Source: a virus. Taken from it: DNA of 40,665 nt. Shown piece after piece: positions 3,787 to 38,474 of the stretch. The notes under the pieces are model-generated. The model did not search any database. It saw nothing but the letters and a program-made list of their open reading frames with translations, and had not been told where the DNA came from. Where the stretch lies: IMG/VR virus record IMGVR_UViG_3300046514_000643, positions 1 to 40,665 of that record. One strand, 5' to 3'. Position 1 is the first letter of the stretch; every line of letters begins with the position of its first letter. Both the position numbers and the translations under genes were made by a program.

Positions 3787-4767
3787 TCAGACTCCCTCGA
3801 CTTCGGTGCCGTTGCGGAACGGCTGACCCATCAGCACGCACATCAGGCCACGCCGGTAGTACTTGATCCACTGCTTGCGGTCGGCCAGCTGGAACGCCTC
3901 CGGGTTCATGCCCGGCGGCGCGCTCTTCGGGTGCGGCGCCTCGTACGTGCGGCCGGTGCGCGCGGCCACCTCTTCGGCGGCACCAGCGTGGTACTGCTCC
4001 AGGAGCCACGCCTCAGCCTCGTCGGCGGTCATCACCGGTGCGCCGTCGAACCCTGCCGTCCGGCACTCCGCGGACTCCCACACGTCACCCTTGAGCCAGC
4101 GCTCGAAGTCCTTCCGGAACTTCGCGTCCGGGTGAGCGGCGAGGTACGGCGGGATAGCGGCCTGGATCATCTCGACGGTGGTGCGCTGGATCGCGCGAGC
4201 CCACTCAGCCCACGCCGTCCTCTTCGCGCCCTTCAGTCCGTAGGCCTTCCAAGCCGCTTCGAAGTCGTCGGAATAGGCCACTTGAATGCGAGTCTTCTTC
4301 TCAGTCTTCTCAAGATCAGTCTTCTTATTTATCGACTGGTTATCCGTGGACGGATTTTCAGTCGACGGTCCGACCTGGGGGTCTGTGGTGTTTTCGCTGG
4401 TCGCGTCCACCGACTGAAAACCCGTAGACGGTGAACCCGTCAGCGGTCGCGTCTCGGGGTTATCGGTGACCTGCCACGTCCACGTCCACAGTCCGCCGTC
4501 ACCGGCGCGCTTGGTGCGGAGCAGGTAGCCCGTGTCCTCCAGCTGCTTCAAGGCGTTGGTCACGGCGTCGCGGCCCTCGACGCATGAGCGGTCCAGCTGG
4601 CCACGATCGAGCTGCCAGCCGTCCGGCAGGGAGATCATGTACCCGAGCAGGCAGCGCGCGAGCGCCTTCAGCGGAACGGGGAGCTGGCCGCGCTGGAAGG
4701 CGTTGGCCACGATGGTGTACTGGTCCGCGGGCAACGGCGCACGGCGGAGGGTGAACTCGCCGTTCAT
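3787..4767 (-). CDS. Replication initiator with winged-helix N-terminus
   Basis: Protein of 326 aa resembling phage replisome organizers. Residues 1-110 look like a winged helix: helices at 28-46 and 55-75, then the strand pair GYLLRTKRAGDGGLWTWTW. Residues 115-165 are a low-complexity Ser/Thr/Asn/Lys linker coded by unusually AT-rich DNA. The C-terminal half, from about 170, is DnaD-like in layout (FEAAWKAYG ... FERWLKGDVW). Placement directly before the helicase gene supports origin binding and helicase loading. The linker DNA carries repeats that may be the origin (see the separate entry). The ATG at 4767 is the first in-frame start; its ribosome site (GGTGGCGAG) is weak. Confidence 0.75.
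   Translation of the reverse strand: MNGEFTLRRAPLPADQYTIVANAFQRGQLPVPLKALARCLLGYMISLPDGWQLDRGQLDRSCVEGRDAVTNALKQLEDTGYLLRTKRAGDGGLWTWTWQVTDNPETRPLTGSPSTGFQSVDATSENTTDPQVGPSTENPSTDNQSINKKTDLEKTEKKTRIQVAYSDDFEAAWKAYGLKGAKRTAWAEWARAIQRTTVEMIQAAIPPYLAAHPDAKFRKDFERWLKGDVWESAECRTAGFDGAPVMTADEAEAWLLEQYHAGAAEEVAARTGRTYEAPHPKSAPPGMNPEAFQLADRKQWIKYYRRGLMCVLMGQPFRNGTEVEGV
4260..4430. other. Candidate replication origin inside initiator gene
   Basis: This stretch is AT-rich against a GC-rich background and carries two inverted 19-bp copies: ACGGATTTTCAGTCGACGG at 4350-4368 on the plus strand and ACGGGTTTTCAGTCGGTGG on the minus strand (4407-4425 in plus coordinates), with three differences. A DnaA-box-like TTATCCGTG lies at 4340-4348. 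Phages such as lambda carry origin iterons inside the linker region of their initiator gene, which is the arrangement here. Origin function is inferred. Confidence 0.45.
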
Positions 4768-5064: not shown

Positions 5065-5625
5065 TCAGAACAGGCTCTGCACTGGCTGCACGCCGCCGTC
5101 GGGCTTCCTCTCCTCGCCGGCCAGGTCCCGCGCCGCGCTCGCTCCGGCCGCGGTCAGCGTCCACAGCTGCCAGTCCGATCCCTTGTGCCGTCGAGTGATT
5201 CCGAGACCGTCGGCGGTCAGCACCGGCGCCACGAGCCAGCCGTCCACCAGCTCGCCTCGCCGCGGGCGCTCCGAGTTCTGGTCCATCTCCAGCCGCTCCT
5301 GGATCTCGAAGTCGGTCAGGTCTCCCCAGCGGTACAGCGCGAGCAGCACCGCGGCGCGCTGGGTCCCGCTCCGCGGCCGGATCGCGGCGGCCGTGGCCCG
5401 GCTCGTCGGCAGCGCATCGGCGCGCACCTTGCCCTCGCGGTTGCCCGCGGCGGTGGTGCGAATCTGGTCCTGGCCGTCGGCGAGCCGCTGGATGATGCAG
5501 TCGACCTCCAGGCGGAGACCGGCGGCCACCTGGCGAAGGTCGCCCGGCGTCCGAACCTGGTCAAGGTCGCGGGCGAGGTCGCGGGCTCGCTCGGCGCACT
5601 TCATCGCCTCGTCGAAGTGGGTCAC
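5065..5625 (-). CDS. Hypothetical protein with winged-helix-like C-terminus
   Basis: Protein of 186 aa with no family I recognise. Residues 5-75 are mostly helical and charged (ERARDLARDLDQVRTPGDL). From about residue 100 the sequence TQRAAVLLALYRWGDLTDFEIQERL reads like the first helices of a winged-helix domain, with a later LTADGLGITRRHKGSDWQLW segment as a possible wing. This suggests DNA binding. The GTG start at 5625 overlaps the upstream stop by 4 nt (GTGA), so it is translationally coupled. It is the last gene of the small-gene run and is followed by terminators. Confidence 0.7.
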   Translation of the reverse strand: MTHFDEAMKCAERARDLARDLDQVRTPGDLRQVAAGLRLEVDCIIQRLADGQDQIRTTAAGNREGKVRADALPTSRATAAAIRPRSGTQRAAVLLALYRWGDLTDFEIQERLEMDQNSERPRRGELVDGWLVAPVLTADGLGITRRHKGSDWQLWTLTAAGASAARDLAGEERKPDGGVQPVQSLF

Positions 5626-5816
5626 GATGTCAGCTCCACGCGGATATTGACGCGGTTGCCGTCCGGCGTGATCGCGTCGAAGTCCGACCAGTCCGGCGCG
5701 TTGAACAGGCTGCCGGTCTGGATAGCCGGCTCCTCGCCGGAGCTGAGCTGGTTCCACACCCACTTCGCGGCGTCTTCCTGGAGTTCGGCCTTCGTGGCGT
5801 GGGAGTTTGCGGCCAT
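5622..5816 (-). CDS. Hypothetical small protein (64 aa)
   Basis: No family recognised. The N-terminal half is helical and acidic (KAELQEDAAKWVWNQL) and the C-terminal half looks like short strands ending in GNRVNIRVELTS. The ATG at 5816 has a GAGGAG ribosome site that overlaps the last codons of the upstream gene. It overlaps the next gene by 4 nt. It is coded within a tightly packed run of small genes with the same orientation. Confidence 0.7.
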   Translation of the reverse strand: MAANSHATKAELQEDAAKWVWNQLSSGEEPAIQTGSLFNAPDWSDFDAITPDGNRVNIRVELTS

Positions 5817-7209: not shown

Positions 7210-7370
7210 TCCCCCTCCAGGATTGCCCGGAGACGGTCGAAGCCCTGGAGCTTGTCCTGGATCACGCCGCGCTCGTAGTCCTCGAACACGGTGCGGGCCT
7301 CGGCGATCGTCTTCTCGTCTGCCTCGAACTTCTCGACGATCTCGACGATGTCCATGATGTATTCGCCCAT
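7206..7370 (-). CDS. Hypothetical small acidic helical protein (54 aa)
   Basis: Short, highly charged helical protein (DIVEIVEKFEADEKTIAEAR ...). No family recognised; it may form a coiled coil. The ATG at 7370 overlaps the upstream stop by one base (TAATG), and its stop overlaps the next start by 4 nt. An internal ATG five codons later (MDIVEIV) is also possible. Confidence 0.6.
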   Translation of the reverse strand: MGEYIMDIVEIVEKFEADEKTIAEARTVFEDYERGVIQDKLQGFDRLRAILEGE

Positions 7371-8065
7371 TACTCCCCCTTCGGGAACGTGCGCGTGACG
7401 GAGGTCCCGCGCTCTTTGATGATCTTCGTGTGGGCATCGGTGACGGTGGCGCTGACCTGGTCCAGCTCCGCCTGAGCCAGCTCCGCCTGGAGCTTCTTGA
7501 CCTTGGTCACCTGGGGCTCGAACTTGCCCAGGCCGACGAACGTCTTCATCACGTCGGCGAGCAGCCCGGCGAGCAGTTCGCGCGAGCGATCGCCCTGGCC
7601 GGAGAACTCCGCCTGGAACAGCTCGAACAGCCGGGCCTTCGCGTCCGGCGTCTCGATGTGCGCCGCCGCGACCGCGGAGACCAGCGCGTCCAGGTCGAAC
7701 CGGTGCTCGTTGATCAGGTCGGGCCGGACGGTGATGGTGCTGCCGTCGGTGTCGACGATCGCCAGCGAGCCGTTCGGCACGCCGTCGGAGTCCCCGTTCA
7801 CTGTGAGGAGCGCGTGCTCGCGGAGCACGTCCTTCACGGTGCGGGCGGTATCAGTGAAGGCGCGGCCGTAGTCGGTGAGCGTCTCGTTCATAGCGCCGAA
7901 GCGGCGCACCAGTGCGGCGGCGTCCTCCGGCGTCTTGATCTGCCCGGCCTTGGCCAGCTCGTCGGCGAGCACCGAATCCACGCCGTCGCGGAGAGCGCGG
8001 CGGAGGTCAGGCGTTGCGGGCAGCTGACGGCCGTCGTGCAGGACCAGTTCGTTCTCGTCGGTCAC
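7370..8065 (-). CDS. Hypothetical protein (231 aa) with C-terminal coiled coil
   Basis: Unrecognised protein. Residues 1-90 are helical and acidic; the middle contains GSLAIVDTDGSTITVRPD, a likely beta segment; residues 165-215 (FEPQVTKVKKLQAELAQAEL ...) have heptad spacing of a coiled coil. The gene sits downstream of the SSB gene and of an operator-type promoter, so a DNA metabolism role is possible but unproven. The GTG start at 8065 overlaps the upstream stop by 4 nt. Confidence 0.7.
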   Translation of the reverse strand: MTDENELVLHDGRQLPATPDLRRALRDGVDSVLADELAKAGQIKTPEDAAALVRRFGAMNETLTDYGRAFTDTARTVKDVLREHALLTVNGDSDGVPNGSLAIVDTDGSTITVRPDLINEHRFDLDALVSAVAAAHIETPDAKARLFELFQAEFSGQGDRSRELLAGLLADVMKTFVGLGKFEPQVTKVKKLQAELAQAELDQVSATVTDAHTKIIKERGTSVTRTFPKGE

Positions 8066-8337
8066 TTGCGGTTCAGTCCCTTCGAGTACTCCACGAGCAC
8101 GTCGCGCGTGGGGTCGTAGTCGGTGGTGTCGAGGACTACGGCGACGACACAGCACGCGCACGAGCCGGAGATGGTGCGGCCGTCGCGTGTCGGGATGTAG
8201 ATGGTGGCCTCGATGACGTTCCCGATCACCGAGCAGACGGGGCAGGCGGCGCCGTAGTCGTCGACCTGGTCGGCCCAGACTTCGCGGTATTCCACGGTGA
8301 CGGACGGGCTGCCGGTGAGGCTGATCGTGGTGGACAT
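8062..8337 (-). CDS. Zinc-binding hypothetical protein (91 aa), leaderless
   Basis: Small protein with CPVCSV near residues 33-38 and CACC near 61-64, two cysteine pairs that probably hold zinc. The flanking sequence is mainly strands. It is the first gene of the operon that runs to 5065. Its ATG lies only 6 nt after the -10 box of a palindrome promoter, with no ribosome site, so the mRNA is probably leaderless. Its stop overlaps the next GTG start by 4 nt. Confidence 0.75.
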   Translation of the reverse strand: MSTTISLTGSPSVTVEYREVWADQVDDYGAACPVCSVIGNVIEATIYIPTRDGRTISGSCACCVVAVVLDTTDYDPTRDVLVEYSKGLNRK

Positions 8338-8343
8338 GGGTTG

Positions 8344-8372
8344 ATCGTACCCCCCATTTTGGGGGGACACAA
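8344..8372 (-). promoter_or_regulatory. Palindrome promoter 1 (upstream of 8062-8337)
   Basis: Minus-strand -35 TTGTGT (8372-8367), then the palindrome CCCCCCAAAATGGGGGG filling the 17-nt spacer (8350-8366), then -10 TACGAT (8349-8344). The ATG of the gene starts 6 nt after the -10 box. A protein bound to the palindrome would block RNA polymerase. Confidence 0.75.
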
Positions 8373-8407
8373 GTAACCCCCCGGTATCCGCGGCCGGGGG
8401 GTTACTT
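8371..8407 (-). terminator. Hairpin terminator after ssb
   Basis: A 14-bp perfect stem (AAGTAACCCCCCGG and its complement) with a 9-nt loop lies 50 nt after the SSB stop. It would end the recombination/SSB transcript. Its last bases touch the -35 box of palindrome promoter 1, so the end of one unit and the start of the next are back to back. Confidence 0.75.
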
Positions 8408-9028: not shown

Positions 9029-10132
9029 TCAGTGCTCCCAGGGCCGCGCTGGGGGTGGCTCCTGGTTCCGGGGCGACGTGCCCAGGGTGTTCCCCATGCT
9101 GACGCCCAGCGAGCGGGCGACGGACTGGAAGCCGGACAGCTGGGAGCGGAGGTTGTGCTGGTTCCCCTGGAGCGCCTTGACCAGCATTTTCGCCTCGCCG
9201 GCCTCGTACTGCTCGTCCGCCGACGCGAGCCAGGCCTCTGCCTCTTGCTGCTTCTGGTTCTTCGCGTCCGACTTGGCCAGCGCGAGGTTGTACTTCAGGT
9301 TGAGATCGTGCTCCGCGGCGTGCAGGCGGCCCATCTGCTGACGGAGGAACACCTCGCTGTTCTCCAGCTGCTCCAGGATGGAGACGATCTTCAGCTCCAC
9401 GTCCTGGGGCGTGTAGAGCACGGTCGGGTCCAGCGCGGGCAATTTCTTCGTCAGCGGGTCCAGGGTGTGCTCGCCCTCGCGTGGGACGATGGGCACGCCG
9501 GTACCGGGCCTCGGTGCCTCGCGCCGGGCGAGATCCGTGCTTACGGTGTCCGGCTCGCCCGGCTTCGGCCCGTCGTACAGCCCGGCGCGGAATTCCTGGC
9601 CGTAATCCAGCGGCACCGCCTGAGCCTCGTCGGGCTCGTCCGGGTACCGATCGGCATCAGCTTCGTGGACGGTGATCGGCGGCGTCTCCTCGTCGACCAG
9701 CTCGCCGCCCTTGATCTCGGCAGGCACCGCAGCGATGACCTCCTCGACGACCTCGGCATCCACCGGCTCGTGCTCAACGGCGTCCTGAGTGGACTGTCCG
9801 TATACTCCGAAGGCGCCCTGCACCACGGCCTCCTTGCTCGCGTAGTCGTCCTGCACGGGCTCGCCCGCGACGCTCCGGGCCTCAGCCTCAGCCTCGACCT
9901 TGCGCCGGGCAGCGTCCACCTTCTCCTGGGCGTCACGCTTCATCCGGACCGACAGCGGCTCTTCCTCGAACTCCGGCAGCTCGTACTCGACAGCGTCGGG
10001 CGGCTCGTCTTCCATCGGGAAGCCCAGCGTCTCGCCGCACGCGCAGACGAAGCCGTCGGTGGCACTGAAGCTCGTGGAGCCCTCGTGGTCGGCGTGCTCC
10101 GGCCAGTACTCGGCGATCTTGTTGCTCGTCAC
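9029..10132 (-). CDS. Hypothetical acidic protein with zinc motif and coiled coil
   Basis: Protein of 367 aa with no family I recognise. The N-terminus has a short CACGE motif near residue 30, followed by a long acidic, proline-rich, probably disordered region to about residue 230. The C-terminal third is helical with coiled-coil character (VELKIVSILEQLENSEVFLR ... AAEHDLNLKYNLALAKSDAK). It lies between the ERF and SSB genes and overlaps ERF by 4 nt, so it may work with them, for instance as a recombinase partner. No exonuclease motif is visible. Confidence 0.72.
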   Translation of the reverse strand: MTSNKIAEYWPEHADHEGSTSFSATDGFVCACGETLGFPMEDEPPDAVEYELPEFEEEPLSVRMKRDAQEKVDAARRKVEAEAEARSVAGEPVQDDYASKEAVVQGAFGVYGQSTQDAVEHEPVDAEVVEEVIAAVPAEIKGGELVDEETPPITVHEADADRYPDEPDEAQAVPLDYGQEFRAGLYDGPKPGEPDTVSTDLARREAPRPGTGVPIVPREGEHTLDPLTKKLPALDPTVLYTPQDVELKIVSILEQLENSEVFLRQQMGRLHAAEHDLNLKYNLALAKSDAKNQKQQEAEAWLASADEQYEAGEAKMLVKALQGNQHNLRSQLSGFQSVARSLGVSMGNTLGTSPRNQEPPPARPWEH

Positions 10133-10947
10133 TGGGCACCACCGGCGGGCATCGCGGTGTTCGGGTCGATGCCGAAGTTCCCCAGGCGCGCGCGGATGTG
10201 CTTCTCCAGCGGCAGGCCGCCAACCTCGAACCCGAGCATGCCGCGCTGGGCGGAGTAGGCGTGCACCTGGTTGATCCGCTCCACGGTCAGCTCCGGGTCG
10301 TTCAGCTGACGGCCGACCCAGTCGGAGAACTCGATGCGCTTCTCCGGCGTCAGGCTGCCCTCGGGCGCGCCGGTGGTGTCGCCGCGCTGCCCCGCCTGGC
10401 GCCGCTCGCGGGCCTCGGACTGGGCGCGCTGGTAACCCTGGCCGCCGCCGGTCGGCTGGGCGAAGTCACCGGGGCGCTCGCTGTCCGGGTCCGGGTCGTC
10501 GGTGGCGATCATGAACGCCTGGGTCAGCGCGCTCTTCATGGCCATGGTCATCGCCTTGGCCGAAGACTTGTCGCTGGAGTCCTTGCCCTCGCCGATCGAG
10601 CCGACCGTCAGCGTGGTGCCGTCGACCAGGCTCGTGAAGGTGTACTCCATCGTCAGCCACACCGAGGTCCACATGGTGTAGCCGGAGCCCTCCTTGTACG
10701 GCTTCTTGTCCTCGGACCGCTCGCGCGAGACCACGCGGGACTGGACGAACACACCGTGGTCACGGAAGGCCTGCCCCAGCGCGGCGGCGGTGTCCTCGAA
10801 CCGGCGGAAGGCGTACTTCGTGCCACCACTCCGCTTGCCGTCGTCGTACTGCCCGGCCTTGGGAACGTAGGTGACTTGCTGCATGACGGCCGCGACGGCG
10901 GCGAGGATCTTGGGCGCGCTGTCGGGCGCGCTGTCCTGGGCAGGCAC
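10129..10947 (-). CDS. ERF-family single-strand annealing protein
   Basis: ERF-type recombinase of 272 aa that anneals complementary single strands in phage recombination. The family core is present: KYAFRRFEDTAAALGQAFRD near residues 44-63, a strand region to 118, then GEGKDSSDKSSAKAMTMAMK at 119-138 and ALTQAFMIATDDPDPD near 140-155. The C-terminal 100 residues are a Gln/Gly/Arg linker and a helical tail. The start is GTG at 10947 with a weak ribosome site. No RecE or lambda-type exonuclease partner is seen nearby. Confidence 0.9.
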   Translation of the reverse strand: MPAQDSAPDSAPKILAAVAAVMQQVTYVPKAGQYDDGKRSGGTKYAFRRFEDTAAALGQAFRDHGVFVQSRVVSRERSEDKKPYKEGSGYTMWTSVWLTMEYTFTSLVDGTTLTVGSIGEGKDSSDKSSAKAMTMAMKSALTQAFMIATDDPDPDSERPGDFAQPTGGGQGYQRAQSEARERRQAGQRGDTTGAPEGSLTPEKRIEFSDWVGRQLNDPELTVERINQVHAYSAQRGMLGFEVGGLPLEKHIRARLGNFGIDPNTAMPAGGAQ

Positions 10948-10953
10948 GGTGTG

Positions 10954-11469
10954 TTACTCGCTCTCGTTCGGGTTGATGATGACGCCCTTGTCGACGTAGA
11001 TCTTGAGCAAGTCCTCGACGGTCGCGGGGACGGACTTCCCCGCGGCCTCGATGCTCTTGAACGCGGCCGTCTTCTGGTCGCGGGGCACGCGAAAGCGGAT
11101 GCGCTCCCGGTCCTCGCCGTACTCGCGCGGCTTGATCTTGCCCACGCCCAGTTCGCGCGCCTCGTCGCTGTCGGTGCTGAGAACCTCGGTCGGGTACTCG
11201 ATACCGGCGGCGGCGTCGCGCGCGGCCTGCTCGGTGGGGAAGACGGTGCCTTCCCACCGCGGCTTCTTGTGCTGGGTCACGGCGATGACCCAACCCACGA
11301 TGGGCACCGCTTCGGCGGCAGCCTGGAACAGGGCGGCGCGTGCCACGCTGGCCAAGGTCTGACCCTGAAGAAGTGCCCGCTTCATGGCGGCCTCGTACAC
11401 GTCCAGCTGAATCCACAGCTCGACGGACACGCGGCCGGCCTCCTCCGGGGCTGTCGTTGCGTTGTCCAT
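10954..11469 (-). CDS. Tandem ribbon-helix-helix protein, candidate regulator
   Basis: Protein of 171 aa with two segments that look like ribbon-helix-helix (Arc/MetJ-type) units: residues 13-50 (RVSVELWIQLDVYEAAMKR ... ASVARAALFQAA) and 121-163 (RERIRFRVPRDQKTAAFKS ... VEDLLKIYVDKG). Each has a short strand followed by two helices; two in one chain could bind a palindrome without dimerising. It has one of the C6/G6 palindromes at its own promoter, which suggests autoregulation. It heads the ERF/SSB unit. The ATG is 6 nt after the -10 box and has no ribosome site, so translation is probably leaderless. Function as a repressor is inferred. Confidence 0.65.
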   Translation of the reverse strand: MDNATTAPEEAGRVSVELWIQLDVYEAAMKRALLQGQTLASVARAALFQAAAEAVPIVGWVIAVTQHKKPRWEGTVFPTEQAARDAAAGIEYPTEVLSTDSDEARELGVGKIKPREYGEDRERIRFRVPRDQKTAAFKSIEAAGKSVPATVEDLLKIYVDKGVIINPNESE

Positions 11470-11475
11470 ACGAGC

Positions 11476-11506
11476 ATCTTACCCCCTATGATGGGGGGTA
11501 ACACAA
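11476..11506 (-). promoter_or_regulatory. Palindrome promoter 2 (upstream of RHH gene)
   Basis: On the minus strand: TTGTGT (11506-11501), a 19-nt spacer carrying CCCCCCATCATAGGGGG (11498-11482), then TAAGAT (11481-11476). The palindrome extends to TTAC...GTAA. The ATG is 6 nt after the -10 box. The divergent HNH gene starts 28 nt away on the other side, so the site could affect both. Confidence 0.7.
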
Positions 11507-11526: not shown

Positions 11527-11970
11527 ATGGCCAAACGGCCTGCCCCGAACTGGCGTGAACTGCGCGAACGGCTCTGGATGCGCAGCAACGGGTATTGCGA
11601 GGTCAGCGGTGTGCCGCTCGACTTCGACACCTTCGACGCGCACCACCGGCGGAACAAGCAGATGGGCGGCACGTACCGCCTGGACACCGACACCCTGGCC
11701 AACCTGATCGCGGTGGACCCGATCGTGCACAACGGCCACCGGAACTCCGTGCACCAGGCGGCCGGGTGGTCCAGGCCGCGCGGTTACCTGCTTCACGGCA
11801 ACTCGGTACCCAGCGAAGAGCCGATCCTCTACAAGGGCCGTACGTGGCTGGTGCTGCATGCCGACGGCACCCACGAGGTGCTTGATATCCACGACCCTCG
11901 ACTCCCATCCCCGCTCTACCCCTTCGAGAAGCGCGGACCCGGCGGCCAGTACGTCGGTTTCTGCGGGTAG
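11527..11970 (+). CDS. HNH endonuclease
   Basis: Plus-strand protein of 147 aa with an HNH nuclease core: CEVSG near residues 24-28, FDAHHRRNKQMGG near 36-48 carrying the first histidines, and TLANLIAVDPIVHNG near 60-74 with the Asn and last His. A single zinc Cys is seen, so zinc binding may be incomplete. It could be a homing endonuclease or a packaging-associated nuclease; it is far from the terminase genes. It is divergent from the RHH gene and convergent with the tail gene. The ATG at 11527 has a GGAG site; GTG at 11521 is an in-frame alternative. Confidence 0.85.
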   Translation: MAKRPAPNWRELRERLWMRSNGYCEVSGVPLDFDTFDAHHRRNKQMGGTYRLDTDTLANLIAVDPIVHNGHRNSVHQAAGWSRPRGYLLHGNSVPSEEPILYKGRTWLVLHADGTHEVLDIHDPRLPSPLYPFEKRGPGGQYVGFCG

Positions 11971-11980
11971 GCAACGAGAA

Positions 11981-12010
11981 GCCCCCACTCCTCGCCGTAG
12001 GAGTGGGGGC
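11981..12010. terminator. Bidirectional hairpin between HNH and tail genes
   Basis: A 12-bp perfect stem (GCCCCCACTCCT and its complement) with a 6-nt loop lies between the convergent HNH and tail-tip genes. It probably ends both transcripts. A smaller stem, TGCCTG with CAGGCA, follows near 12024-12037. Confidence 0.82.
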
Positions 12011-12082
12011 CTCATCGTCACCATGCCTGCCCAGGCACGAGCCACCTTGTCCAGGGGGGCCGGACCCAAGTGTAAGGCTCGA

Positions 12083-20929: not shown

Positions 20930-20952
20930 ATCTTGCCCCCTTAAGCAGGGGG
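20930..20952 (-). promoter_or_regulatory. Variant palindrome site in structural operon
   Basis: CCCCCTTAAGCAGGGGG (20936-20952) has the arm spacing of the other sites, followed on the minus strand by CAAGAT. The CTTG-type -35 box is missing. The TAA stop of the connector gene sits inside the palindrome. It could be a weaker operator or an internal promoter. Confidence 0.45.
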
Positions 20953-25419: not shown

Positions 25420-25504
25420 GTTCGGCCCCTTCCATCTCGTCTCGGTGACGGGGGCCGTCCGGTGCTTAGAGCGCCAGCGCGAGGGGCTTGGAGCCGAAAC
25501 GCGC

Positions 25505-25542
25505 AAGTGCCCCGTCTTCGCCGGAGCGTAGACGGGGCACTT
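25505..25542 (-). terminator. Hairpin upstream of major capsid gene
   Basis: A 13-bp perfect stem (AAGTGCCCCGTCT and its complement) with a 12-nt loop lies in the 136-nt gap before the capsid gene. It probably ends the accessory-block transcript, so the capsid gene needs its own promoter in 25420-25504 or read-through; I see no clear promoter box there. Confidence 0.75.
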
Positions 25543-25555
25543 GATCGAACGCGCG

Positions 25556-26332: not shown

Positions 26333-26506
26333 TCAGTGGGTTCGGGAGGCCAGCTCGACCTTGAGGTCCCGGAGCGCGGCGCGCCCCCGGCCCGCAACGC
26401 GGGAGAACCCGTCCCAGCGCGCCCGCTCCGCGTAGAGGTCAACCCAGTAGATCGCGGTCTCCAGGTGGGAGACAGTGAGGCTGGCGTACTTGGTGGCGGT
26501 CTGCAT
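26333..26506 (-). CDS. Hypothetical small protein (57 aa), cassette gene
   Basis: Short protein (MQTATKYASLTVSHLETA ... YAERARWDGFSRVAGRG) with a helical pattern and basic residues; no family recognised. It sits alone between a palindrome promoter and a conserved hairpin. The CGGAGG ribosome site lies 6 nt before the ATG, so unlike some other palindrome-controlled genes it is not leaderless. Its promoter is nearly the same as that of the gene at 33877. Confidence 0.68.
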   Translation of the reverse strand: MQTATKYASLTVSHLETAIYWVDLYAERARWDGFSRVAGRGRAALRDLKVELASRTH

Positions 26507-26544: not shown

Positions 26545-26574
26545 AATGTATCCCCCCATAATGGGGGGATACAA
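26545..26574 (-). promoter_or_regulatory. Palindrome promoter 3 (cassette at 26333-26506)
   Basis: Minus-strand -35 TTGTAT (26574-26569), palindrome CCCCCCATTATGGGGGG (26568-26552), -10 TACATT (26550-26545). With flanks GTAT/ATAC the palindrome is perfect over 25 bp. From palindrome to TTGG beyond the -10 it is identical to the site at 33808. Confidence 0.8.
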
Positions 26575-29565: not shown

Positions 29566-29970
29566 TCAGAGGATCACGGAGGCGATCAGGGAGCTGGTCG
29601 CGGCCTCGACCCGGCGGAGCGACATCTCCGCGCGCAGGGCCCACACGGCGGCGGAAACCTTGTCGCTCGCGCTGCCGGACTTCGGCCAGCTGTCTTCCAT
29701 CCGCTGGAGGCGCTCGAAGGGCTCGTCCGCGAACAGCTTGGCGGCCTCGATACCCGGCGTCGGCAGGCCGTAGGCCAGCGCGTGCTGCCACTCGCCCCGG
29801 CGGCCCAGCTCGCACGTCACCTGAGCGGCGCTGGCCAGGTCCATGTCCTCGTGGGCGACGTACTGGGCAGCGGCCTTGCGAAGCTCGATCAGCGTCGAGT
29901 TCTGGAGGTTCTCCGCCATGTCGGTCCGGTGCTGGACCTCTTCGCGGGTGAGGGGCTGGATCATCTGCAT
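29566..29970 (-). CDS. Hypothetical protein (134 aa), own promoter
   Basis: Alpha-helical acidic protein (PLTREEVQHRTDMAENLQNS, then ELRKAAAQYVAHEDMDLAS). No family recognised. It is a single-gene unit: palindrome promoter 30000-30029 upstream and a hairpin downstream. The ATG at 29970 has a GAGG site. Confidence 0.65.
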   Translation of the reverse strand: MQMIQPLTREEVQHRTDMAENLQNSTLIELRKAAAQYVAHEDMDLASAAQVTCELGRRGEWQHALAYGLPTPGIEAAKLFADEPFERLQRMEDSWPKSGSASDKVSAAVWALRAEMSLRRVEAATSSLIASVIL

Positions 29971-29999: not shown

Positions 30000-30029
30000 A
30001 ATCTATCCCCCCAAGATGGGGGGAGTCAA
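30000..30029 (-). promoter_or_regulatory. Palindrome promoter 4
   Basis: Minus-strand -35 TTGACT (30029-30024), palindrome CCCCCCATCTTGGGGGG (30023-30007), -10 TAGATT (30005-30000). It drives 29566-29970. The gene has a normal leader with a ribosome site. Confidence 0.8.
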
Positions 30030-30031
30030 GC

Positions 30032-30391
30032 TCACACTCCGGCGGACTCGTTCAGGGCGTCGCGGGCGATGACCGACACGCCGCGGTGCAGCCGCTTCAG
30101 AGCGAAGGTCAGCGCGGTGATCAACCCGGAGACGTAGTCCTCGGAGATCTCGCTGCCGCCGACGGCGCCGTGGTCGTTGATCCGGTACTCCATGCCGCTC
30201 CGGCGGACCCCCGCGTACCAGAGCGCCACGCCGTCCGTGCGGCTCGCGGAGAGGCTGAACCCCCAGCCGGTGCGCTGGACCTCCAGGAAGGTGTTGCCCT
30301 CCCAGCCGTAGTGATGCCAGGTGCCGACCGCCATCCGGCTGATGATGATGGGCAGGTCGCGCTCTGCCGGCCGGTCGAATTCGAAGTTCAT
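30032..30391 (-). CDS. Hypothetical protein (119 aa), leaderless
   Basis: Mixed alpha/beta protein (LPIIISRMAVGTWHHYGWEG ... MEYRINDHGAVGGSEI). No family recognised. It is controlled by palindrome promoter 5; the ATG at 30391 lies 7 nt after the -10 box with no ribosome site, so the mRNA should be leaderless. It is probably transcribed alone or with read-through into the next unit. Confidence 0.66.
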   Translation of the reverse strand: MNFEFDRPAERDLPIIISRMAVGTWHHYGWEGNTFLEVQRTGWGFSLSASRTDGVALWYAGVRRSGMEYRINDHGAVGGSEISEDYVSGLITALTFALKRLHRGVSVIARDALNESAGV

Positions 30392-30398
30392 AGGGCCG

Positions 30399-30427
30399 AT
30401 CTTACCCCCCATCTTGGGGGGAGACAA
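30399..30427 (-). promoter_or_regulatory. Palindrome promoter 5
   Basis: Minus-strand -35 TTGTCT (30427-30422), palindrome CCCCCCAAGATGGGGGG (30421-30405), -10 TAAGAT (30404-30399). The start codon of 30032-30391 begins 7 nt after the -10. Confidence 0.8.
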
Positions 30428-32527: not shown

Positions 32528-32724
32528 GCCTCCACCCCGTACTGCTCCCGGAACAGGGCGACGATCTCGCGCGCGGCGTTCTCCTCGTCGAGCACCACGC
32601 TGTTGCCGTCGCCGAGATCCTCGCTCGCCTCGTAGTTGCCCTGGAGGATGCGCACGATCTCCGCTTCTGGGCCGACCAGCGGGATGAAAGAGCCGCCGTG
32701 CGTCGAGGCCCTGACGCCGCTCAC
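32524..32724 (-). CDS. Hypothetical protein (66 aa)
   Basis: Acidic small protein (SGVRASTHGGSFIPLVGPEA ... EENAAREIVALFREQYG). No family recognised. GTG at 32724 overlaps the upstream stop by 4 nt. Confidence 0.62.
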   Translation of the reverse strand: MSGVRASTHGGSFIPLVGPEAEIVRILQGNYEASEDLGDGNSVVLDEENAAREIVALFREQYGVEA

Positions 32725-33353
32725 CGGCCGCCACGCCGCGCGCGGTCCTGGTCCTCGAAGAAGCCGGGGCGCGCCTCCCCGCGGTCCACCAGGGTGCCGA
32801 GACGGGCCATCTCGCGGGCGGCGTCAGCACCGGCGGCCGGGTCGATCGGCGGCAGCTCGGTGAACACGCGCTCCTCCGCGCTCTCCAGCATGCGCACGGC
32901 GGCAGCCTCCCAGCCACGCGAGGTGGGGAGCTGGTCGACGACGAGCAGCATCTGGGGATGCAGGAGGGACATCGCCTGGGCGGCCAAGGTCTGGACCTGA
33001 CGGCTCTCGGGGGTGCCGCCGACGACGCGCCGCGATCCGTAGAGGTTGTCGCCCATCGAGTCGGTGATCAGGGAGACCATGCCGGAGACGGGAATGTGGG
33101 TGACGGCGGTGCTGCCGATGGTTGCGGTCACAACGGGGCCGTAGCTGTCGTCGCCGTAGACGATGTGCGCGCGGTAGTCGGTGCCGTTTGGCTCCAGCGG
33201 GATGACCGCGCCGGGATCGCCGGTCTGGTCGGTGAGCAGGTACTGAGCGGCGTCATCCGCGGACTCGTAGTGCGTCACCTCGCGGCCACCGGCGATACGC
33301 TCAACCACGTCGCGGCCGGCCGGTGACAAGCCGATGGTGATGATCGGGAGCAT
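32721..33353 (-). CDS. Hypothetical protein (210 aa), head of accessory operon
   Basis: Mixed protein (LPIITIGLSPAGRDVVERIA ... MVSLITDSMGDNLYGSRRVV). No family recognised; the tail is acidic and then basic. It is the first gene of the operon that continues to 30483, driven by palindrome promoter 6. The ATG at 33353 has a GGAAGGGG site 7 nt upstream. Confidence 0.68.
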   Translation of the reverse strand: MLPIITIGLSPAGRDVVERIAGGREVTHYESADDAAQYLLTDQTGDPGAVIPLEPNGTDYRAHIVYGDDSYGPVVTATIGSTAVTHIPVSGMVSLITDSMGDNLYGSRRVVGGTPESRQVQTLAAQAMSLLHPQMLLVVDQLPTSRGWEAAAVRMLESAEERVFTELPPIDPAAGADAAREMARLGTLVDRGEARPGFFEDQDRARRGGR

Positions 33354-33389: not shown

Positions 33390-33419
33390 ATCGTACCCCC
33401 AGATTAGGGGGAGAGACAA
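33390..33419 (-). promoter_or_regulatory. Palindrome promoter 6
   Basis: Minus-strand -35 TTGTCT (33419-33414), palindrome CCCCCTAATCTGGGGG (33411-33396), -10 TACGAT (33395-33390). It drives the operon from 33353. The diverging gene at 33430 begins just beyond it, so a bound protein may affect both directions. Confidence 0.75.
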
Positions 33420-33807: not shown

Positions 33808-33837
33808 TTGACACCCCCCATTATGGGGGGATACATT
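33808..33837 (+). promoter_or_regulatory. Palindrome promoter 7 (plus strand)
   Basis: The clearest of the set: -35 TTGACA (33808-33813, consensus), palindrome CCCCCCATTATGGGGGG (33814-33830), -10 TACATT (33832-33837). The palindrome fills the spacer. It drives the single-gene cassette at 33877. Confidence 0.85.
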
Positions 33838-33876: not shown

Positions 33877-34074
33877 ATGTACGCAAACGAGCAGGGAATC
33901 CGGATCTTCGAGATCGATGACGTGGTCACCGTGGACGACGAGACGGTTCAGTGGTCCGTCGACCAGGTCGGCCAGGTTTGGGTCCGGCTCGTGAGCGGTC
34001 TGGCAGCCCGGAACGTGCTCCCCGCTGCCCTGACTCTCGTCGACGCCAACATGGTTGGCCACTCGAACGCCTGA
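33877..34074 (+). CDS. Hypothetical small protein (65 aa), cassette gene
   Basis: Short beta-rich protein (GIRIFEIDDVVTVDDETVQW ... VWVRLVSGLAARNVLPAAL). No family recognised. GGAGGG lies 7 nt before the ATG. Its promoter and downstream hairpin match those of the gene at 26333, but the proteins are unrelated. Confidence 0.68.
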   Translation: MYANEQGIRIFEIDDVVTVDDETVQWSVDQVGQVWVRLVSGLAARNVLPAALTLVDANMVGHSNA

Positions 34075-34387: not shown

Positions 34388-34420
34388 CAGAAGGCCCCCG
34401 GGGAGACCGGGGGCCTTCTG
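34388..34420. terminator. Bidirectional hairpin between convergent genes
   Basis: A 14-bp perfect stem (CAGAAGGCCCCCGG and its complement) with a 5-nt loop. It lies between the plus-strand genes and the convergent collagen-like gene, and separates the accessory block from the head genes. Confidence 0.85.
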
Positions 34421-36054: not shown

Positions 36055-36315
36055 TCAGTGAGCAGCGCCCTTGTGGTGGGCCTTGAACAGGGCGCGGCCC
36101 GCGGGGGTGGCCATCATGATGTTCGTCGCGAGCCCGTCGGCCATCCGCGGCGGCACGCTCTCCTTGATCAGCGCGTCCCGGAGCGTCGTCCACGGGTGCG
36201 GGCTGCCCATGTACCGCGCGGAGCCCTTCGGCCCGACCCAGTACAGCCAGAGCTTCGAGCCCCGGCCGTACGGGAGCGTGCTGGCTAGCTCGTCGCCTTC
36301 GTCGGGCTCGCCGGG
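36055..36315 (-). CDS. Protease C-terminal extension made by -1 frameshift
   Basis: An open frame of 86 codons (PGEPDEGDELAST ... LYWVGPKGSARYM ... SPHPWTTLRDALIK ... KAHHKGAAH) with no ATG, GTG or TTG before an internal ATG at 36210. Its start lies inside the protease gene, in the -1 frame. CCCTTTC (36321-36315) has the X XXY YYZ form with codons CCT TTC in the protease frame (residues 719-720). A -1 slip there would join the protease to this extension, giving about 806 residues in total. Alternatively the internal ATG at 36210 yields a 51-residue protein, but the conserved-looking part upstream would be lost. Confidence 0.55.
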   Translation of the reverse strand, partial: PGEPDEGDELASTLPYGRGSKLWLYWVGPKGSARYMGSPHPWTTLRDALIKESVPPRMADGLATNIMMATPAGRALFKAHHKGAAH

Positions 36316-38474
36316 AAAGGGCGCACCACCTCGTCGAGCAGGCCCCCCTGGATGATCTCCAGGCTCAGCTGCTCCTGCTCCGCGGCGAGCTTGTCCGGCG
36401 CGGCCTCGGGGGTGCGGGCCCAGTCGCCCAGGAGGTTGCTCAGCTCCGCGGCGACCATCTTCGCGAACGCCTTCAGGTCCATGCCGTCGGGTCCGAACTC
36501 CGCGGCGGGACGGGTGGCACCGGCCGCGACGAGCGCCACCTGGCCGACGCCGGATGCGACGCGAGCCCGCGGGACCGGGTAGCCGGGCACGTTGACCGCG
36601 AGCACGCCCACCATCTCCAGGCGACCGCCCACGCCGCGCCAGTCGCCGGACGGCGGCGCGGCCATCAGCTTCGTCAGGTCGACCTCGGACAGCTCGGGGC
36701 GAACCCGGCCGGCCACCCAGATGCCATGCCGGTCCTCGCCGGCGGCCAGGTCGGCGGCCACGGTGCCCGTGTTGTCGTAGTGGCTGGTCGTCTCGTCGAC
36801 GCTGGCGGAGAGGCTCGCGTGGCCGGTGTTCATGGTCAGGTGCCCCACGCCGACGGTGCGCACCTCGTCGCCGTCGGCCACGCGCATCGCACCCGTGTTG
36901 AAGTAGGCGTAGTCGGATGCCGACTTCGGCGGCGGGGTGCAGCGCTTGGACACGCCGATGTGGCACGTGTTCCAGGTGGCGATGTGGCCGAACACGCGGC
37001 CGTCGTCGGTGAAGGTCAGCGGAGTGGGCTCGCTCAGCCCGGGATCGGTGAACCAGTCGAGCGGCGGCAGGTCGGCCAAGCCCTTCTTCTTCAGGAACGC
37101 GGGCTTCGCCTTCTTCTTCGTGCCGTCGGCGTTCTCGTCTGCCTCGTCGGCACCGCCGTCCGCGGCGTCCTCGGGATCAGCCTTCTTCTTCTTGGCGTTC
37201 TTCAGGAACGCGGGCGGCAGCGCCATCTCGCCGGCCAGGCACGGAGAGCAGGTGTCGCCGTACTCGGGGATGGCGATGGACGCGGTGACCGGCTGGATGC
37301 CGCGCTGGAGCAAGTACGCCGACAGCCCTTCCGGCGTGCGCATGTCCTCGGGGACCTCTTCGTTCTCGTCGATCAGCGGGCGCTCGCCGTCGATCTCCAC
37401 GTAGCCGTCGGGGAAGGCCGGGATGGCGCACAGCGTGGTGGCCGCGATCTTCGCGTTCGAGACGGTGACGCGGTGGGACTCGGTGCCGTCCTCGGCGTAG
37501 GTCACGTCGTCGGTGAAGTCGCCCTCCGACAAGTCCACCGAGTTGCCGGTGAGGTAGCCGCGCCGGGCGTAGTCGCCGCCCTTGCTGTCGCCGTCGACCT
37601 CACCGCGGCCCTGCCACACGAAGGTGCCCTTCGGCAGCGGCTCGCCGGTCTGCTTGGAGACGAACTCCTCACCAGGAATCTTCCACAGTTCGTTGATCTT
37701 GCCGACGACTTCGGCGCCGCTGTGGCCGCCGTTGCCCGTGTTGACCGTCTGGGCGAACACGCTCAGCGGCGGCTTGCGGAACTCGATGGTGCCCGGCTCC
37801 AGGTAGCGCCCGTCGGCGGTCTCCATGCCCTCGACGGCGAGACACGGCCAGAACGCCGGCAGTCCCTGGGTAGCGGCCTCGTGGTCCTTCGTGGCTTCGG
37901 CCATCTCGGTCACTCCTTCGGTGGCGTAGGTGTCCTGGTCGCTGTTCGCGATCAGCGGGAAGTCGAAGTGCTGGGCGGCCAGCGCGAGCCGGATCGTGGA
38001 GAACGATGCTTCTCCGTCGGCCGTCGGCAGCACGCCCGGGTCCAGGTCGAACCCGGCGGTGATGTGCGGGAGGTACGGCTCGTGCTGCTCGGGGTAGAGC
38101 GCGCCCAGCACGTCGGCAGCGAGCCCGGCGGCGCGGCTGGCCAGCATGTCGAGCTGGTCGTCCTCGTCGCCATCGTGGTCACCGGGCTGGAGCGCGGTCA
38201 CCGTGGCGGGCTTGAAGGCGCCGGTGGGTCCGCCGTCGCGGTTCCAGATGGCCGTACCGAGGATGCGTACCGACAGCGGCCCGCGGTTGAGTGCGAGCGC
38301 GGCCACCTGGCTCTTCAGCGTGTCGACCATGACCGGCGGCAGGTTGGCCACGTCGTCGCCGAGGAAGCACAGCGTGCAGTGGATCTCGCTGGCCGGGTCG
38401 CCGCCGGGCACCGTGTAGCGACCGGGGTTGTCCGGGATCAGGGCGATCATGCCGCCGGTCTGGTCGTCAGCCAC
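36285..38474 (-). CDS. Capsid maturation protease fused to 2H phosphoesterase
   Basis: Protein of 729 aa. The N-terminus is a 2H phosphoesterase domain with HCT (His32-Thr34) and HIT (His136-Thr138) motifs, as in LigT-like enzymes that act on cyclic phosphates. The middle and C-terminal parts resemble prohead proteases of actinophages: GYLTGNSVDL with Ser311 as a likely catalytic Ser, an acidic/Lys-rich linker (KNAKKKKADPEDAADGG), and the pattern TGHASLSASVDETTSHYDN with EDRHGIWVAGRVRPELS. It trims the capsid delta domain during maturation. The GTG at 38474 has GGAGG upstream. A slippery CCCTTTC occurs near the 3' end (see the entry at 36055). Confidence 0.75.
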   Translation of the reverse strand: MADDQTGGMIALIPDNPGRYTVPGGDPASEIHCTLCFLGDDVANLPPVMVDTLKSQVAALALNRGPLSVRILGTAIWNRDGGPTGAFKPATVTALQPGDHDGDEDDQLDMLASRAAGLAADVLGALYPEQHEPYLPHITAGFDLDPGVLPTADGEASFSTIRLALAAQHFDFPLIANSDQDTYATEGVTEMAEATKDHEAATQGLPAFWPCLAVEGMETADGRYLEPGTIEFRKPPLSVFAQTVNTGNGGHSGAEVVGKINELWKIPGEEFVSKQTGEPLPKGTFVWQGRGEVDGDSKGGDYARRGYLTGNSVDLSEGDFTDDVTYAEDGTESHRVTVSNAKIAATTLCAIPAFPDGYVEIDGERPLIDENEEVPEDMRTPEGLSAYLLQRGIQPVTASIAIPEYGDTCSPCLAGEMALPPAFLKNAKKKKADPEDAADGGADEADENADGTKKKAKPAFLKKKGLADLPPLDWFTDPGLSEPTPLTFTDDGRVFGHIATWNTCHIGVSKRCTPPPKSASDYAYFNTGAMRVADGDEVRTVGVGHLTMNTGHASLSASVDETTSHYDNTGTVAADLAAGEDRHGIWVAGRVRPELSEVDLTKLMAAPPSGDWRGVGGRLEMVGVLAVNVPGYPVPRARVASGVGQVALVAAGATRPAAEFGPDGMDLKAFAKMVAAELSNLLGDWARTPEAAPDKLAAEQEQLSLEIIQGGLLDEVVRPFPASPTKATS

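Follow-up and report, generated by a model that had tools for sequence, protein, structure and literature searches.

A Predicted Single-Chain Ribbon-Helix-Helix Protein and Candidate Operators in the Early-Type Promoters of a Phage Lineage

The minus-strand gene at 10954–11469 of the window analysed here (the whole 40,665-nt stretch of an IMG/VR record, with a G+C content of ~68%) encodes a protein predicted to have two ribbon-helix-helix (RHH) units in one chain, and the gene lies directly behind a C6/G6 palindrome of a type that recurs in the spacers of other predicted promoters in the window. We consider it likely, with some reservation, that the product is a single-chain RHH transcription factor which acts through these palindromes as an autoregulated repressor of early-gene promoters.

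The gene and the fold of its product

The open reading frame (171 aa, ATG start) has coding statistics that match those of the window's other genes and is conserved; it is a genuine gene. Downstream and in the same direction lie a gene for an ERF single-strand annealing protein (10129–10947, minus strand; PF04404, E = 7e-12; phrog_155), which likely shares an operon with the double RHH gene, then genes for a 367-aa protein and SSB. A gene for an HNH endonuclease (11527–11970, plus strand; phrog_740, E = 2e-18) is transcribed divergently. No near relative of the window (first 25 kb searched) was found among INPHARED phages. Elsewhere in the window, the 729-aa product of 36285–38474 (minus strand) is unusual in that a head protein carries a fused segment: the N-terminal ~174 residues match an RNA ligase PHROG (phrog_2659), and portal / head maturation protease families match the remainder.

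The first-pass annotation had proposed two RHH-like units in the chain, within residues 10–55 and 120–165, and structure prediction places them at 13–53 and 121–161. In an AlphaFold2 model built with 12 homologues, the first unit comprises a strand (13–21) and two helices (22–34 and 39–53), and the second a strand (121–129) and two helices (130–142 and 147–161); the layout is identical in both (strand of 9, helix of 13, turn, helix of 15 residues), and the block mean pLDDT is 85–94 across the units. The AlphaFold model of a short homologue (140 aa) contains the same two units and no further strand, the β-α-α arrangement of the RHH fold being confidently predicted for both units in both models. 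DSSP marks both strands of the 140-aa model as paired (E) and, since these are its only two strands, they pair with each other. As judged from DSSP pairing, the RHH strands of one modelled chain form a single, presumably antiparallel ribbon, which would make the chain a pseudo-dimer, with one molecule per RHH ribbon. The window version and some relatives carry an α/β insert at residues ~60–106 (strands 60–65, 70–77, and 94–98, helix 80–87) that separates the RHH units, possibly serving to sense a signal or bind a partner; other double RHH relatives, including the 140-aa homologue, are without it.

Structural comparison also points to a single-chain RHH protein of the TraY/AvtR type. The best solved matches in Foldseek searches against the PDB were F-relaxosome chains E–G (PDB 9f0x and related), identified as TraY by sequence search. 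For the 140-aa short form, F-relaxosome chains accounted for nine of the ten top PDB matches, followed by AvtR of Acidianus filamentous virus 6 (PDB 4hv0). Archaeal-virus RHH proteins were also near the top of the viral matches. Target-normalised TM values were ~0.5–0.7 with weak E-values (>0.001 throughout, best 0.066 against the PDB), as would be expected of folds this small. Nothing significant was found for an RHH profile or family in Pfam, PHROGs, or PDB sequence searches, a PHROG match to an Arc-like family being weak (E = 0.13), and the RHH fold is therefore assigned from structure. When the two halves were compared as profiles, they aligned in the right register but not significantly (E = 0.27), leaving descent by internal duplication unsupported. 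That duplicated RHH units in one chain are uncommon, as the annotation had remarked, is fair, although there are precedents: F TraY has the whole RHH dimer fold within one polypeptide (PMC12117103), and AvtR carries a pair of RHH motifs on a single chain, functions as a monomer, and controls its own gene (PMC5569661).

Palindromes in the spacers of predicted promoters

The palindrome of the regulator's own promoter (CCCCCCATCATAGGGGG, 11482–11498, minus strand) lies exactly between a -35 element, TTGTGT (11501–11506, minus strand), and a -10 element, TAAGAT (11476–11481, minus strand), which are separated by a 19-bp spacer; the ATG follows six nucleotides after the -10, and relatives share this layout. 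The gene thus stands behind its own palindrome, as first noted, and the accompanying suggestion of a leaderless start is plausible from the sequence.

The other predicted operator-promoters of the window are similarly built. On the minus strand, TTGTGT-CCCCCCAAAATGGGGGG-TACGAT (8344–8372) precedes the predicted leaderless ATG of a 91-aa gene (8062–8337), TTGTAT-CCCCCCATTATGGGGGGA-TACATT (26545–26574) lies upstream of a 57-aa ORF (26333–26506), TTGACT-CCCCCCATCTTGGGGGGA-TAGATT (30000–30029) upstream of 29566–29970, TTGTCT-CCCCCCAAGATGGGGGG-TAAGAT (30399–30427) before a predicted leaderless 119-aa gene (30032–30391), and TTGTCT-CTCCCCCTAATCTGGGGG-TACGAT (33390–33419) upstream of 32721–33353; on the plus strand, TTGACA-CCCCCCATTATGGGGGGA-TACATT (33808–33837) lies upstream of a small gene ending at 34074. 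Leaderless starts are likely at 8350, 11482, and 30405, because the ATG falls 6–7 bases past the -10.

Seven of the eight C6/G6-type palindromes in the window form a promoter spacer (palindrome matches in the window, 5 versus 0.08 expected). These seven operator-promoters combine a TTGACA- or TTGTGT-like -35, a spacer of 17–19 bp with the pattern C5-6 N G5-6, and a -10 of the form TAnnAT or TAnATT. A degenerate palindrome in the tail gene block (20936–20952) has no -35 and is unlikely to mark a regulated promoter. Early-type and small unknown genes, rather than structural operons, follow the operator-promoters; 29566–29970 is followed by a DNA methyltransferase gene, and another of the genes precedes an exonuclease operon. 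Judged by gene type, the set would be early, and the presence of multiple operator copies in such promoters is consistent with a repressor.

Across seven genomes, perfect C6-N5-G6 sites number 47 against 0.15 expected, with adjacent spacings nearly absent (two sites with N4, four with N6). The -35 and -10 motifs (TTG, TA...T) are in place and in the same orientation at 40 of the 47 sites, compared with 0.05% of random positions. These counts suggest that the C6-N5-G6 palindrome is an operator occupying the -35/-10 spacer. Because the motifs stand at a fixed distance around these 40 sites, the reading of the palindromes as terminators was ruled out for the promoter set.

Long G/C-rich, terminator-like inverted repeats, distinct from the operators, occur at 2464–2497, 11978–12013, 25504–25543, and 34388–34420. 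A perfect 14-nt inverted repeat (AAGTAACCCCCCGG / CCGGGGGGTTACTT, 8371–8407), directly upstream of the promoter at 8344–8372, may be a terminator or an additional site. Read toward the HNH gene, the regulator's own operator is CCCCCTATRATGGGGGG in most relatives, and its centre (11487–11492, plus strand) is TATGAT in the window and TATAAT in several relatives; the centre could serve as the -10 of the divergent HNH gene, and a single site might then control promoters in both directions. In distant L061 (G015) and L063 (G020), the sites mostly have CCCCCCACnGTGGGGGG or similar centres with TTGACA, ~20 sites of a wider C5-N7-G5 pattern are present per genome, and the regulator apparently starts with a Shine-Dalgarno sequence rather than a leaderless ATG.

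Co-inheritance and other candidate readers

An exact promoter-operator scan of 2.9 million viral contigs yielded 25 contigs (counted from listings), which constitute one phage group. The double RHH protein is encoded in 14 of them, including every one of the 11 that reach 33 kb or more. The remaining 11 are all shorter than 32 kb. All but one of 5.3 kb were tested for ERF, and these ten lack it; since the adjoining ERF gene is absent along with that for the protein, the region is missing from them. Three records (G015, G020, and G026) that protein scans had missed were reached via the operator, and all three encode the protein, with 28–30% identity to the window protein in G015 and G020. The gene stands directly behind its own palindrome in 14 of 14 loci examined and in these three records, even at 28% identity, such that every relative examined has the operator in the regulator's own promoter, the arrangement of an autoregulated gene. 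No relatives of the protein were detected among cultured phages or in GTDB genomes, and the promoter-operator pattern gave five scattered matches in unrelated taxa, a chance level, among 84,980 bacterial and archaeal genomes. The annotation's candidate master regulator of the palindromes thus has strong, though indirect, support from co-occurrence, own-promoter placement, and the lack of a bacterial counterpart.

Within a single lineage other shared genes also co-occur with the palindromes, including those for the 263-aa protein (7370–8161), the winged-helix-like ORF (5068–5814), and the HNH endonuclease. The double RHH protein had been called the window's sole clear DNA-binding regulator, which goes too far: 5068–5814 (minus strand; no Pfam match, and a PHROG match to phrog_1123, whose function is unknown) looks by eye like a possible winged-helix DNA-binding protein, and 3787–4767 encodes a replication initiator. 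It is conceivable, although we regard it as improbable, that the product of 5068–5814 or 7370–8161 reads the palindromes and that the double RHH protein works on DNA in some other way, such as arranging it for ERF/SSB recombination. Both genes are also present in distant G015 (34% and 30%), the double RHH gene adjoins the ERF and SSB genes, and the TraY protein is architectural at oriT (PMC12117103). However, no palindrome lies at the start of either candidate in the window, but one is invariably found at that of the double RHH gene, and 5068–5814 is lowered further as a candidate because two phage records (both fragments) that contain relatives of it lack both the palindromes and the double RHH protein.

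Streptomyces CsoR operators are likewise G-tract pseudopalindromes (consensus ATATACCCCTNAGGGGTATAT; PMC3902906), which raises the question of a host regulator, such as a CsoR-type repressor favouring sites of this kind. We consider such a reader very improbable. CsoR sites require TAC-X9-GTA, a rule that the longer C6-N5-G6 sites do not fit (PMC3902906), the five scattered loci among bacterial and archaeal genomes are unrelated, and CsoR proteins are all-helical metal-sensing tetramers with no homologue in these phages. A CsoR-family gene was found in 0 of 13 related records, and a phage-encoded CsoR-type regulator was accordingly dismissed.

A role as a lysogeny or prophage immunity repressor was also ruled against, by the position of the gene at the head of a recombination operon and by the absence of any tyrosine or serine integrase from 12 related records, some near 61 kb. 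The missing integrase makes lysogenic immunity unlikely, unless lysogeny were plasmid-like.

Proposed mode of action and wider meaning

In the preferred reading, the double RHH protein probably sits on the C6/G6 palindromes of early promoters, its own included, and lowers them together. The two RHH units would pair within one polypeptide to give one DNA-reading ribbon, and the palindrome would fill the spacer of host σ70-type promoters. Repression is expected because RNA polymerase should be kept from a near-consensus promoter whose spacer is occupied by protein. The product would thereby silence the early promoters, possibly including the divergent HNH promoter, giving an early burst and then negative feedback, the simplest circuit for a regulator that comes first in its own recombination/replication operon. 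The 19-bp spacer of its own promoter would also suit a MerR-like activator that re-phases the promoter elements, and AvtR both activates and represses (PMC5569661). An activating role of the protein at the palindromes, or a dual one set by its concentration as in AvtR, is nevertheless unlikely: most other sites have spacers of 17–18 bp and near-consensus TTGACA/TAnnAT elements, and such promoters should fire unaided and be blocked by a spacer-bound protein.

The first-pass suggestion that the tandem RHH reads both arms of a palindrome is probably wrong in detail, since the strands pair within the chain and one molecule corresponds to one RHH dimer. An ordinary RHH dimer normally reads one half-site, and the arm centres of the palindrome are 11 bp (6 + 5), one helical turn, apart. 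Two molecules per palindrome are likelier because a TraY-like molecule equals one RHH dimer; based on the models, each would probably be one pseudo-dimer on one arm, the two lying on the same face. In the homologue alignments (A3 and A4), Glu17 is invariant on the N-strand, and the C-strand carries Arg123 (Arg or Lys), invariant Arg125, and Arg127; such residues could match a C6/G6 arm, with the arginines against guanines and the glutamate against cytosines.

P22 Arc, a phage RHH repressor with half-sites ~11 bp apart, places two RHH units on each operator, as proposed for the present protein, but does so as a homodimer of single-RHH chains. AvtR is, like the phage protein, virus-encoded with two RHH motifs per chain; it binds DNA as monomer units at several inverted repeats in its genome and regulates its own gene (PMC5569661), to which the phage case is a predicted parallel. 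In contrast, AvtR belongs to an archaeal virus, has AT-rich sites, oligomerises along DNA, and is a dual activator/repressor, and no sequence relationship was detected. TraY, although the best solved-structure match, is a relaxosome protein at oriT that is not known as a regulator of G-tract operators, and it has no significant sequence similarity to the phage protein. In our analysis the working mode would resemble that of AvtR or Arc, yet the protein is not a detectable sequence member of either family. A literature search found no publications on an actinophage RHH early regulator.

A bolder proposal, which we advance tentatively, is that a new single-chain RHH family reads asymmetric C6 half-sites, with the operator in most early-promoter spacers and one protein tuning the early programme. 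The differing strands of the fused pseudo-dimer would recognise a G-tract arm that a symmetric RHH dimer reads poorly.

Single-chain RHH proteins as such have been described before; the novelty lies in this family, in the G-tract operator, and in how consistently that operator occupies promoter spacers across one phage lineage. An orphan protein family is here paired with a recognisable operator, in a lineage for which the INPHARED collection searched offers no closely related cultured phage. The sequence itself is enough to list the regulon, and a single purified protein and a 30-bp duplex would suffice to test the pair. If correct, the proposal would extend the short list of single-chain RHH proteins to bacteriophages and would illustrate a fused dimer that reads G-tracts.
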